From contig NZ_CP101620.1 in NCBI RefSeq assembly GCF_024399475.1, positions 1,965,608-2,029,607 on the forward strand: 64,000 nt of DNA, read 5' to 3'. Positions within the stretch are counted from its first letter, which is position 1. Each line of letters begins with the position of its first letter. The position numbers and the translations under genes were made by a program. The DNA comes from Allocoprobacillus halotolerans. Its GTDB lineage: Bacteria > Bacillota_I > Bacilli_A > Erysipelotrichales > Coprobacillaceae. Below are positions 4,967-10,758 of this stretch, piece by piece. Below the pieces are notes generated by a model, which saw only the letters and a program-made list of their open reading frames with translations, had not been told where the DNA came from and searched no databases.

Positions 4967-6703
4967 ATGAAACTTATATTACATTATTTAAAAAGATATA
5001 AAAAGTTGTTAGTGTTGAATATTGTATCTGTCTTTGGTTTTGCCCTTGTTGAACTAGGTCTACCAACGATTATTGCAGATATGGTTGATAATGGAGTAAC
5101 AATGCAAAATGAGAGTTATCTTTATTCCATGTGGTTTTTAGCCATTGTAATTTCTATTTTAGGTGTAGCTGGAACGATTATTTTAGGGTATTGTTGCGCT
5201 AAAATTTCGACATCCATTACAAGAGATATGCGTAATGATATTTTTAGCCATATTCAAAGTTTTTCACCACATGAATTTAATCATTTTGGAATCTCATCAT
5301 TAATTACACGTACCAACAATGATGCTTTTCAAATTCAATTGTTTGTTAATGTTCTTTTAAGAACGGCATTATTAACACCGATTATGGTCATTATCAGTGT
5401 TTTTATGACCATGCGTACTTCATTAGAATTGTCGTTGATTATTGCTGCGACTTTACCGGTGATTGTGATAGGCGTTATTGTTGTTGCAAAGATTTCTGAA
5501 CCTTTATCACAAAAACAACAATTATCTTTAGACCGTTTAAATCGTATTACAAGAGAAAATTTATCAGGATTAAAAATTATTAGAGCATTTAATAATGATG
5601 ACTATGAACAATCACGTTTTAATTCAACAAATGATGAATTTACAGGATATACAAGAAAGATTTTTAAATTAATGTTATTAACGCAACCGATTTTTTATTT
5701 CTTAATGAATTTAGTGACATTAGTGATTTTTTATGTAGCGAGTCATATGATTGATATGGGAACATTACAAGTTGGAAAGTTAATAGCCTTTCAGGAATAT
5801 CTTTTCCATGCGATGTTTTCGATGATGTTATTTTGTAATGTTTTTGTAATGTATCCTCGTGCGGCTGTTTCAGCAAAACGTATTATGGATGTTCTGTCTA
5901 CAAAAAGTGTCGTTGAAGATCAAGGAACGAAAGGACAAGTAGTTTCTCATGGTGAACATCATCTTTCTTTTGAAAATGTGACTTTTGCATATCCAGATGG
6001 TGAAGAAGCAGTTTTAAAAAATATTTCTTTTGAAGCCCATGAAGGTGAAACCATTGCGTTTATTGGAAGTACTGGATCAGGTAAGAGTACATTGATTAAT
6101 CTGATACCACGTTTCTATGATATAAGTAGTGGAAAAATTCAAATTGATGGTTTGGATATACAGAACTATCATATTGATGATTTAAGAAATAAAATAGGAT
6201 TTATTCCTCAAAAAGCCATGTTGTTTACTGGAACGATTGGAGAAAATATAAAATATGGAAAAGCTGATGCGTCTTTAGAAGAATTGGAACATGCAGCGAA
6301 AGTTTCACAAAGCTATGATTTTATTATGGAAAAACCACTCGGTTTTGATGAAATGATTACCGAAAGTGCAACCAATGTTTCTGGTGGACAAAGACAACGT
6401 TTAAGTATTGCTAGAGCGTTAATTAGAAAACCGGAAATTTATATTTTTGATGATTCTTTTTCAGCTTTGGATTACAAAACTGATGCTGTTTTAAGACAAG
6501 CTTTAAAAGCGTAAACGAAACATTCTATTGTTTTGATTGTGGCTCAAAGAATTTCTACTATTAAAGATGCTGATCAGATTATTGTTTTAGATGAAGGACG
6601 TATTGTTGGACATGGGAAACATCATGAGCTTTTAAAGAATTGTTCTATTTATCATGAAATTGCTTTATCACAGTTAAGTGAGGAGGAATTGAATTATGAA
6701 TAA
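4967..6703 (+). CDS. ABC exporter half-transporter 1 (permease-ATPase), interrupted by an in-frame stop
   Basis: Fused membrane and ATPase half of a heterodimeric type IV ABC exporter (LmrCD/BmrCD-like multidrug or lipid exporters). About six membrane spans are followed by Walker A GSTGSGKST, Q-loop, signature VSGGQRQRLSIARAL and Walker B IYIFDDSFSAL. The D in place of E after Walker B (DD) marks the degenerate catalytic site typical of one half of such pairs. A TAA at 6512-6514 stops the frame after LRQALKA, yet the same frame runs on for 62 more codons with conserved sequence (IVAQRIST, the H-loop partner and D-loop region) to a stop at 6701 that overlaps the next ATG. So it is a nonsense change, not an indel. 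Losing the last 60 residues would remove the switch region; treat as a possible pseudogene or base error. No regulator gene is adjacent. Confidence 0.85.
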
Positions 6704-8477
6704 GAAATGGCAAACATTAAAAAAATCAATCCAACAGATTTCTCCTTTTTTAGCACCTTATAAATGGGGATTTATCATTGCAATTATGATGATTGTTGTG
6801 ACATGTTTTTCATTATCTACATCACCTATGATTGAAGGGATGATGACATCATTATTGATGGAAAATGCGATGGATATGATGCAAGGGATACCGGGTGCTC
6901 ATGTAGAATATGATCGTGTTATTGAAATTATTATCATGTTGTTAGGAATATATTTATTAAAAACTTTTTCACAATCTATTACGATTGTCACATTAACAAA
7001 TTCTATTCAAAAAACAATGCATGATTTAAGAAATGCTTTGCAAGATAAGATTAGAAAATTACCTGTGAGTTATTTTGACCAACATAAATATGGGGATGTT
7101 TTAAGTCGTATTACAAATGATGTTGATACATTGTCTAATGCTTTGCAACAGACTTTAACAGAAATGATTAGAGGCATTTTGATGATGATTTTAGCTATTG
7201 TTATGATGATGCGTATCAATATCACGATGACTTGTATTGTCTTATTGATTATTCCTGCGGCTTTATTGATTACAAGATTTATTGTCAAGCGTTCCCAAAA
7301 GAAATTCCAGGCTCAACAAGATGCATTAGGAAATTTAAATGGAGCCATTACTGAAATGTATAGTGGTTATCGTGAAATTCTATTGTTTAATAAGCAAAAA
7401 GATGCGATTGAAAAATTTAAAGGTATTAATCAAACATTATATCGCAATGCTTTTCAGGCACAATTTATGTCTTCTATTATTTCGCCATGTATATCATTAG
7501 TCACTTATATCATTATTGGTACAATTGGTTTTGTGGGAAGTTTATCTGTCTTAAATGGGACATTGCTAGTAGGAGAATTGCAGGCTTTTGTACGTTATAT
7601 TTGGCAAGTCAATGATCCGGTTTCTCAAGTCAGTAACTTATCTTCACAAATTCAATCAGCTTTTGCAGCCTTACATAGAATTTCTGAAGTCTTGAATGAA
7701 CCTGAAGAAAAACCAATAGATAATCCTCAATCTCTTACAAACACAAAAGGTCATGTCACGTTTGATCATCTTTGTTTTGGTTATCATGAAAAAGAAGTTC
7801 TTCATGATATTGATGTTGATATTCAAAGTGGACAGATGGTCGCTATTGTAGGACCAACTGGTTCTGGAAAAACAACGTTAATCAGTTTATTGTTACGTTT
7901 TTATGATGTGACATCAGGAAGTATTCGTATTGATGGTGTGGATATTAGACAAATTCCTAGAGAACAATTGCGTTCTATGTTTGGAATGGTTTTACAGGAT
8001 ACATGGTTATTTCATGGAACGATTTATGAAAATATTCATTATGGACGTTTGGATGCAAGAAAGGATGAAGTGATTGAAGCAGCTAGACAAGCTAATGTTG
8101 ATCATTTTATTAGAACGTTACCAGATGGATATGACATGATTGTTAATGAAGAAGCTAATAATATTTCACAAGGTGAAAAGCAGTTATTAACGATTGCAAG
8201 AGCAATGTTAAAAAATCCTCAAATTATGATTTTAGATGAAGCCACTTCATCAGTTGATACACGATTAGAGAAACGTTTGCAAGATGCGATGCAAAAAGTT
8301 ATGAAAGGACGTACTAGTTTTGTCATTGCACATCGTTTATCAACGATTAGAAATGCTGATTTAATTCTTGTAATTAAAGATGGTTATCTTGTAGAACAAG
8401 GGAAACATGAAGATTTATTAGCAAAGAATGGTTTTTATAGTCAGTTGTATAATGCCCAGTTCCAAGAAACAGCGTAA
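6696..8477 (+). CDS. ABC exporter half-transporter 2 (permease-ATPase)
   Basis: Partner of the preceding half, overlapping its true stop by 8 bp. 593 residues: about six membrane spans, Walker A GPTGSGKTT, signature [15 protein letters not shown] and Walker [13 protein letters not shown] with the full catalytic Glu, and H-loop IAHRLSTI. In heterodimeric exporters the half with the intact Glu does the ATP hydrolysis, which fits. Substrate unknown; related pairs export drugs, bile acids or lipids. Ribosome site GAGGAGG sits inside the end of the preceding gene. Close in sequence style and order to the second exporter at 15.2-19.2 kb, so the two pairs are probably paralogues. Confidence 0.92.
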   Translation: MNKKWQTLKKSIQQISPFLAPYKWGFIIAIMMIVVTCFSLSTSPMIEGMMTSLLMENAMDMMQGIPGAHVEYDRVIEIIIMLLGIYLLKTFSQSITIVTLTNSIQKTMHDLRNALQDKIRKLPVSYFDQHKYGDVLSRITNDVDTLSNALQQTLTEMIRGILMMILAIVMMMRINITMTCIVLLIIPAALLITRFIVKRSQKKFQAQQDALGNLNGAITEMYSGYREILLFNKQKDAIEKFKGINQTLYRNAFQAQFMSSIISPCISLVTYIIIGTIGFVGSLSVLNGTLLVGELQAFVRYIWQVNDPVSQVSNLSSQIQSAFAALHRISEVLNEPEEKPIDNPQSLTNTKGHVTFDHLCFGYHEKEVLHDIDVDIQSGQMVAIVGPTGSGKTTLISLLLRFYDVTSGSIRIDGVDIRQIPREQLRSMFGMVLQDTWLFHGTIYENIHYGRLDARKDEVIEAARQANVDHFIRTLPDGYDMIVNEEANNISQGEKQLLTIARAMLKNPQIMILDEATSSVDTRLEKRLQDAMQKVMKGRTSFVIAHRLSTIRNADLILVIKDGYLVEQGKHEDLLAKNGFYSQLYNAQFQETA

Positions 8478-8518
8478 TATGTGAAAATATGTGAAATGAA
8501 AACAAAAAAAGAAAAATG

Positions 8519-8551
8519 CCCTCTTACTTTCGTATATAAAAAGTAGGAGGG
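8519..8551 (+). promoter_or_regulatory. Hairpin that buries the ribosome site of the Rpn-type gene
   Basis: CCCTCTTACTTT (8519-8530) pairs over all 12 positions (one G-U) with AAAGTAGGAGGG (8540-8551), leaving a 9-nt loop. The Shine-Dalgarno AGGAGG (8545-8550) is entirely inside the 3' arm, 8 bp before the ATG at 8559. Read-through RNA from the ABC operon would carry the hairpin and have low translation of the Rpn gene. It could also serve as a weak terminator for the exporter operon, since TTATTTT follows. The pairing is seen; the function is inferred. Confidence 0.6.
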
Positions 8552-8558
8552 TTATTTT

Positions 8559-9494
8559 ATGTTAAAGGAAAAAAGAAGAATTGAAGATTTTAAGAATGAT
8601 GTTTTGTTTAAATTTACTTTAAGGGATGATCAGGACCCCGACTGCCTTTATCTTTTAAAATTGATTATTGAAAATATTGCAGGAATTGAATGTTGTTCAT
8701 TGAAAGTGCAAAATCCTGAATTGAATCCCCAGCATGTTGAAGATAAGGATATGATTCTTGATGTAAGAGTTACAAATGAAAAAGATGAAATCTGTGATGT
8801 AGAAATGCAAAATTCATCACTGGACCAGGAACAATATCAAAGATTTCAAATCTATGGAGCCAGATTGCTAGTTGAACAGCAAAAGCGAGGACAGGATTAT
8901 GTGTCCAATATTCATCATGTATTTCAATTGATTTTTATCGATGATCTAGATAAGGATAATCTTGTTTTGATAGACAGATATGTGAGCAAAAATGAAGAAG
9001 GGCATATAGAAAAATATCATTTAATAACAAGAATCTACATATATTTACCATATATCAATCTTTTGAAAAAAGAAAAGGGATTGGATAAATTTAATGAATT
9101 GGAAATCGCCATCTACATATTCAAAAATGGGATTGATGATGATATAATGAAAACGAAGAAAAAGGTGGTGGAGATCATGGAAAAGAAAGTAGAAAAGTTT
9201 AATGAAGATATTATTTTGCAGGATATGGCATTCAATCGTGACTTGAACAGAAGGGCGAGAAAGGCAAAGGAGAAAAGAGAACACGAGGAAGGATTGCGTA
9301 TTGGAAAAGAAGAAGGGAGAAAAGAAACCTTAAAGTATAATGTCGTTAAATTATTTATGAAAATGAATCCTAATCATGAAACAGATTTCCTTGATCACTT
9401 GTCATTAGAACAATATGAAAAGATATTTGACCTTTTGCTTGAAGAAGCAAGTTTAGAAGATATTTATAAAATAGCACAAAAAAAGCTTGATTAA
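8559..9494 (+). CDS. Rpn-family PD-(D/E)XK nuclease / putative transposase
   Basis: 311 residues of the recombination-promoting nuclease (Rpn) / PD-(D/E)XK family often labelled transposase. The N-terminal half carries the opening FKNDVLFKFTL and the nuclease core MILDVRVTNEKDEICDVEMQ, in which the usual catalytic Lys is replaced by Gln (EMQ), as is common in this family. The C-terminal part is charged and predicted helical, with GLRIGKEEGRKE resembling the family's repetitive tail. Such genes are multi-copy in gut Bacillota and Bacteroidota and are linked to DNA breakage and recA-independent recombination. No terminal inverted repeats were found, so I do not call a mobile element. Translation is probably restrained by the hairpin over its ribosome site. 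Confidence 0.85.
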   Translation: MLKEKRRIEDFKNDVLFKFTLRDDQDPDCLYLLKLIIENIAGIECCSLKVQNPELNPQHVEDKDMILDVRVTNEKDEICDVEMQNSSLDQEQYQRFQIYGARLLVEQQKRGQDYVSNIHHVFQLIFIDDLDKDNLVLIDRYVSKNEEGHIEKYHLITRIYIYLPYINLLKKEKGLDKFNELEIAIYIFKNGIDDDIMKTKKKVVEIMEKKVEKFNEDIILQDMAFNRDLNRRARKAKEKREHEEGLRIGKEEGRKETLKYNVVKLFMKMNPNHETDFLDHLSLEQYEKIFDLLLEEASLEDIYKIAQKKLD

Positions 9495-9579: not shown

Positions 9580-9717
9580 ATGAAAACACAAATAGAACAA
9601 ATTGATGAAGATATATTCCAGTTCTTTTTTCGTGGTATGAGCTTGTATCCTTGCCATCTTCAAGGTCCAGATAGGCATGTAAGATTGGATGGGAAGGAAA
9701 TATATTATATTCAATAG
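9580..9717 (+). CDS. Possible small protein, 45 residues, unknown
   Basis: Open frame from ATG 9580 to TAG 9717, product beginning MKTQIEQIDEDIFQFFFRGM and containing a Cys and His (YPCHLQG). No clear ribosome site precedes it (GAACGAGGG is 12 bp upstream). The amino-acid mix looks protein-like, so it may be a remnant of a longer gene, perhaps joined once to the Rpn gene. I do not recognise it. Confidence 0.3.
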   Translation: MKTQIEQIDEDIFQFFFRGMSLYPCHLQGPDRHVRLDGKEIYYIQ

Positions 9718-9903: not shown

Positions 9904-10758
9904 ATGAATATTCAAGAGATTAAACAACAATCAAATCAACTCTATCTTCGCTATCGACATCAGATTATACCAGAATTCTTTTATGTAGGATATGTGGGTA
10001 TTTTGGCTCAATATTTACAAAGTGGTATTTTTTCTTTCTTTGTATCACTCTTTTTATGTCCTATTAGTCATGGATATGTTAAATGTGCAATGAAGTTAGT
10101 GGATACAAAGCAACCAATATTAGATTATCATGATTCATTGGATGGCATTTTTAGCTTTGTTAAAGTAGCACCAGCATATTTAATGAGAAAGGCGATTATT
10201 TTGATGTGTATTTTGATTTGTTTAATCCCGTCTTTTTTGACAATTCAAAATTTAATTCCAGAATTTTCTATTGAATGGTTTTCATCATTAGGAAATGCTT
10301 TAATTCAAACAGAATATTTTATACCACAATTTGAATATATATCTTTAATTTTAGAAAATACATTTTTAGTTGTGAATATAATTGTGTGCATTTTTATTTA
10401 TCTTTTTTTAACAACATTATTTATACCTGTTCCTTATGTAATGGAATTAGAAGAATTTTCTTGGACAGAATGTATCACTTATTCTATTCGTTTGATGAAA
10501 AAATATTTTTTTCAATTTATTTACTTATATATTTTATATATGCCACGCCATATATTGTATTGGATGGTAACGGGGTGTATTGTTTTATGGATTGGTCATT
10601 TGAATGAATTTTTAATGCTATTTTGTATTGTTTCATCTTTATTTTTTTATATAGAAGTTTTTAAAGGAAGATTTGAAATTGCAAAATATTTGTTTTATCA
10701 AAAGATGAGAGGGGAATATCATGAGGAAGACGAAAAATATCAAGAGAGTGATTATTAA
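9904..10758 (+). CDS. DUF975-like integral membrane protein
   Basis: 284 residues, mostly hydrophobic with about five or six membrane spans and the N-terminal start MNIQEIKQQSNQ typical of the DUF975 group, which also has a member at 54.2 kb (MNIQKIKARAGQ). Function is unknown for the family. It has a clear GAGGAG ribosome site and its own TATAAT box. Its last 38 bp overlap the start of proB, suggesting translational coupling. No enzymatic motif is visible; proline synthesis has no evident need for it. Confidence 0.7.
   Translation: MNIQEIKQQSNQLYLRYRHQIIPEFFYVGYVGILAQYLQSGIFSFFVSLFLCPISHGYVKCAMKLVDTKQPILDYHDSLDGIFSFVKVAPAYLMRKAIILMCILICLIPSFLTIQNLIPEFSIEWFSSLGNALIQTEYFIPQFEYISLILENTFLVVNIIVCIFIYLFLTTLFIPVPYVMELEEFSWTECITYSIRLMKKYFFQFIYLYILYMPRHILYWMVTGCIVLWIGHLNEFLMLFCIVSSLFFYIEVFKGRFEIAKYLFYQKMRGEYHEEDEKYQESDY

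Follow-up and report, generated by a model that had tools for sequence, protein, structure and literature searches.

Introduction

Transposase genes of IS10/Tn10 and IS200 are guarded against read-through: RNA running in folds over the ribosome site, and transcripts begun by the element itself are meant to avoid this. Rpn genes are widespread and were named for recombination. In the transposase leader of ISPpu9, a structure in the 5' UTR buries the ribosome binding site (RBS), and weakening it raises expression 26-fold (PMC8450116). Rpn genes have recently been shown to be phage-defence toxin–antitoxin genes, and their autonomous transposition has been argued against (PMC10327210). In pneumococcus, rpn-like pseudogenes are ComX-regulated (SPV_2082, log2 fold change 6.6), and the ComX motif is TTTTTNHNNNYTHTTMCGAATADWNWRRD-[TSS] (PMC6560143).

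The locus studied here lies in a 64-kb stretch of DNA, referred to below as the window, and consists of an rpn nuclease gene with a hairpin over its ribosome site. We consider it probable, at roughly two chances in three, that this gene is preceded by a promoter of competence type into which a shield against read-through is built. The device resembles the known protection of transposase genes; the new features are that the shield lies inside a competence-type promoter and is carried with a nuclease gene. As in IS10/Tn10 and IS200, it is carried by dispersed genes, and read-through RNA is predicted to bury the ribosome site. In contrast to these elements, the 5' arm is the spacer between the −35 and −10 elements of a competence-type promoter and the −10 element lies in the loop, there is no transposase, and no antisense RNA was seen. 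The device also serves ordinary genes of the competence regulon, so the comparison with transposases made in a preliminary description of the locus holds as to kind, but the device is not special to transposase-like genes. ISPpu9 differs in having a long own-mRNA leader that is opened by antisense RNA (PMC8450116). The locus has in common with the intragenic Rpn toxin–antitoxin systems a PD-(D/E)XK nuclease, a conserved internal start, variable C-terminal EG repeats and dispersed single genes, whereas the sections of that report used here describe neither an RBS hairpin nor a competence promoter and leave the regulation of the long form open (PMC10327210). As in pneumococcus, an rpn-like gene would be controlled by a competence sigma factor, which there induces it along with dprA, comGA and recA; the pneumococcal genes differ in being pseudogenes, in the upstream part of the motif and, in the passages cited, in having no reported leader hairpin (PMC6560143).

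The hairpin over the ribosome site

The features of the locus are as follows.

6696–8477, + strand: ABC transporter gene (open reading frame), co-directional with rpn, stop codon 8475–8477; presumed source of read-through
8478–8485 and 8488–8495, + strand: two copies of TATGTGAA, conserved in close rpn relatives and within the dispersed unit
8508–8538, + strand: promoter-like block AAAGAAAAAT-N-CGTATATA of competence sigma type, common to dprA, comGA, recA and other rpn genes
8519–8530, + strand: 5' hairpin arm, CCCTCTTACTTT, within the promoter spacer
8531–8539, + strand: hairpin loop of 9 nt, holding the −10-like element CGTATATA
8540–8551, + strand: 3' hairpin arm, AAAGTAGGAGGG, including the Shine–Dalgarno sequence (SD) AGGAGG at 8545–8550; putative transcription start near 8544
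8552–8558, + strand: U-rich spacer TTATTTT, the U tract if the hairpin acts as a terminator
8559–9494, + strand: rpn nuclease gene, 311 aa, PF12784, with conserved D68, E82 and Q84
9162–9494, + strand: internal SD-like AAGGTGGTGG with ATG 9177 and a 105-aa C-terminal product, an RpnS-like antitoxin by analogy

The two arms form a gapless stem of 11 Watson–Crick pairs and one G-U pair, a small correction to the 12-bp gapless hairpin first described. Through AAAAATG and TTATTTT, pairing in the RNA extends outward to about 18 pairs. When all 64 kb were scanned for gapless stems with 12 or more pairs, no more than one G-U, five or more G-C and a loop of at most 20, this stem was the sole match. 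The fold of 8478–8600 has an energy of −19.9 kcal/mol (z = −3.6 against dinucleotide shuffles, with 1 of 200 equally good). The SD, 8 nt 5' of the ATG at 8559, is situated wholly inside the 3' arm; its pairing probability, 0.999, exceeds that of every other gene among the 28 in the window whose SD is clear (the median is 0.22), which bears out the earlier claim of a fully hidden ribosome site.

The promoter block and its regulon

The 5' arm is located inside the conserved promoter-like block at 8508–8538. The motif AAAGAAAAA-N11..15-GTATATA occurs 17 times in the genome of the window, compared with once for the reversed control, and this exact block is present in 20 of 43 family genomes. The genes 3' of 144 block sites include dprA (TIGR00732, 250.9 bits, cut-off 191.2), a comGA gene identified by best match (280.6, against a cut-off of 300) and recA, recognised by sequence. 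The remainder comprise a C39 peptidase exporter, 53–60-aa peptides with a GG motif, rpn genes of PF12784 and PF04754, a 143-aa protein of MG284/MPN403 type and uncharacterised proteins of 173 aa and 103–106 aa. Judged by this gene content, the block marks a competence (SigH/ComX-like) regulon. The gene of a SigH-family factor lies at G000:1597740, and this factor may be the one that reads the block. Relatives of this factor are found in 38 of the 43 genomes, including genomes without the exact block; since the factor does not track the block, its presence alone is no evidence. No sigma-70-like promoter was found in 8478–8558. An ECF-type promoter was set aside by eye, the spacing being about 2 nt short and the regulon that of competence.

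When the ComX motif is laid on TTCGTATA (8529–8536), the predicted start is close to 8544. This point coincides with the SD within the 3' arm and leaves the entire 5' arm behind it, a position that rests on a pneumococcal motif with 6 of 8 positions in common and an upstream part that is T-rich, not A-rich. The gene's own mRNA would accordingly lack the 5' arm.

Several other features of the block sites were observed. The direct repeat of TATGTGAA lies just 5' of the block and is perhaps an activator site. Four PF04754/DUF4351 rpn copies in the genome of the window (L154, L157, L160, and L161) have the same block and a leader of about 100 nt; within this leader lies a conserved reading frame of 32 aa that has an SD of its own. 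The 143-aa MG284/MPN403-type gene starts a few bases after a 245-aa gene in all genomes seen, and all its copies (L153, L189, L219, L230, L256, L265, L268, L281, L285, L294, and L306) have an RBS hairpin with compensating changes, for example GACCTC/GAGGTC in L306. The block is also common to the C39 exporter and the short GG-motif peptides (L155, L303, L237; L166, L179, L196, L289), possibly a competence pheromone or bacteriocin system.

Presumed read-through from the ABC transporter gene

No terminator was found between 8478 and 8508. In two genomes of the same genus that have no rpn gene here (G004 and G002), a terminator directly follows the ABC stop codon (TAAGGTAGTTGTATTCAACTGCCTTTTTTTT; TAGGAGGAGTTAAATTTTGTTTAACTTCTCTTTTTT). 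In the three that have rpn (G000, G001, and G003), this terminator does not occur, and the stop codon is followed by the rpn hairpin as the first strong structure; G022 is arranged likewise as far as its contig end. Because the ABC gene adjoins co-directionally and its terminator is missing in the rpn-containing genomes, read-through is expected at the hairpin. Among short-leader sites of the competence-type block, a co-directional gene ends within 60 nt at 18 of 21 sites with a strong hairpin and at 13 of 44 without (p = 4e-5), and several of those 13, such as comGA, have a separate terminator just upstream.

RNA running in from the ABC gene would carry both arms, fold and bury the SD; its predicted fold has an energy of about −22 kcal/mol and an SD pairing of 0.999. 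The hairpin and the U-rich stretch may also halt part of the incoming transcription, and this could add to the masking, since hairpin sites have more T before the ATG. If a competence sigma factor uses 8508–8538, transcription would start near 8544, past the 5' arm. Only the read-through RNA would then fold, because the own mRNA would lack this arm, and its SD would be free or weakly paired and available for translation; for RNA begun at 8543–8545, the fold is −4.9 kcal/mol and SD pairing is 0.5–0.6, a moderate value. At whatever site the unit had landed, the nuclease would be made when the cell is competent, and stray transcription would not produce it. The preliminary description had proposed such a shield, which stands as the probable function, but had missed the overlap with the promoter, which accounts for expression of the gene despite the hairpin. 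Its proposal of read-through protection for Rpn gains support from the masking in relatives, the dispersed unit and the missing ABC terminator.

Relatives and the dispersed unit

The regions upstream of rpn relatives were compared in the 43 family genomes. Most window-type relatives have a block of fixed spacing followed by the SD and ATG some 17–22 nt on, and most of those with a short leader retain SD masking with different but complementary arms. The median SD pairing is 0.815 in 48 rpn leaders and 0.22 in control genes drawn from the 64-kb window (p = 4e-4), and pairing also exceeds that obtained when only the 5' arm region is shuffled (p = 9e-6); both values are optimistic, as are those for covariation, for the sequences are related. 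The arm pairs include GCCCTCTTACTTT/AAAGTAGGAGGG in the window gene, AAACCTCTTTTGT/ACAAAGGAGGTTT in L029, AATCCTCCTgATTATT/AATAATAGGAGGATT in L112, and ACCCTCC/GGAGGGT in L183. As stem registers vary between genes, arm-swap permutation was used instead of pair counting. Exchange of the 5' halves among 32 non-redundant rpn leaders, chosen without regard to folding, changes the mean energy from −8.0 (native) to −5.7 kcal/mol (swapped), a cost of 2.3, and in 20,000 permutations the native energy sum was never attained. The covariation before the ATG that had been suggested as a check is thus present in the relatives, where the pairing that masks the SD is kept and the arms are complementary. Masking is absent in some rpn relatives (L082, L084, L087, L088, L108, and L125). 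In the rpn leaders L122, L149, and L162, a small hairpin, AGTAG...CTACT, directly follows the promoter at the expected 5' end of the transcript, and the SD lies farther on.

Copies at unrelated loci have in common 60–80 bp before the ATG and no sequence farther upstream. Eight Thomasclavelia-type copies are 81–96% alike from −60 to the ATG and 25–44% alike beyond −70; two Longibaculum copies are near-identical from −80 and unrelated farther upstream. This comparison, which covers the 5' boundary, indicates that promoter, hairpin, and gene form a unit and have spread together. Hairpin and gene do travel together, as had been supposed, but the unit also holds the promoter.

Alternative explanations and implications of the probable reading

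The hairpin might chiefly be an intrinsic terminator for the upstream gene, with SD masking a by-product, since a short leader forces the 3' arm onto the SD. An A tract precedes the stem and a U-rich stretch follows it, the ABC gene lacks a terminator of its own at the place of the hairpin, strong hairpins are located behind close co-directional genes, and hairpin sites have a higher T content ahead of the ATG (p = 5e-9 when counted by site, 0.036 by family). Among the rpn genes, however, hairpin strength and T content are weakly related (rho −0.28, p = 0.056), and Thomasclavelia-type hairpins mask the SD fully despite a poor U tract. For some of the rpn hairpins (L186, L229, and L242, among several) there is no gene close by on the upstream side, and the window site, with 5 of 12 pairs G-C and its U-rich spacer, is not listed in the terminator scan. 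We regard termination as the chief role as unlikely.

Were the hairpin instead an own-mRNA switch, opened by temperature, an antisense RNA or a protein, transcription would have to start 5' of 8519. Own-mRNA leaders that bury the RBS are known, ISPpu9 being one (PMC8450116), but the sole conserved block of promoter type includes the 5' arm, which a transcript begun from it cannot contain, and no sigma-70-like promoter was found in 8478–8558; such a switch appears very unlikely. More improbable still is that a repressor binds the dyad as a DNA operator and that the RNA folding is incidental. Its centre does coincide with the promoter, at the −10-like element; an operator would nevertheless leave unexplained that the arms vary between genes yet remain complementary, and that G-U pairs fall on the coding strand, the reverse strand folding less stably in 29 of 30 cases (a set picked on the coding strand).

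A promoter with a built-in shield is very compact, the spacer serving as one arm and the SD as the other, and would keep a dispersed gene silent under foreign transcription and active from its own promoter. A promoter common to dprA, comGA, and recA offers a direct, testable answer to how rpn genes are switched on, in agreement with the ComX-induced rpn-like pseudogene of pneumococcus. A further prediction is that a large group of gut bacteria possesses a competence regulon; our literature search found none described, nor any paper that treats competence promoters of the family. More tentatively, and at somewhat less than even odds, competence promoter, shield, and intragenic nuclease/antitoxin gene may constitute a dispersed cassette of the Massilimicrobiota/Thomasclavelia/Longibaculum group; Rpn nucleases would in that case be a regular part of the late-competence genes and act on incoming transforming DNA or alongside it.

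The rpn gene and its internal start

The product of 8559–9494 matches PF12784 (Rpn/PDDEXK_2) with 49.2 bits, above the curated cut-off of 27.4, in agreement with the nuclease type first assigned to it; its score against NCBIfam TIGR01784 (41.6) is below the cut-off of 52.1. The PD-(D/E)XK catalytic residues D68, E82, and Q84 are invariant or nearly so among relatives. The long form is presumably a toxic nuclease. The internal start, AAGGTGGT...ATCATG, is kept in most close rpn relatives, and by analogy ATG 9177 fits the start expected for an RpnS-like antitoxin inside the gene. A promoter-like match is located at 9120–9148, 5' of this ATG. No rpn relatives were found in viral contigs. Between rpn and a conserved gene at 9904, a short open frame of 45 aa (MKTQIEQIDEDIFQFFFRGM..., 9580–9717) has the appearance of a remnant.
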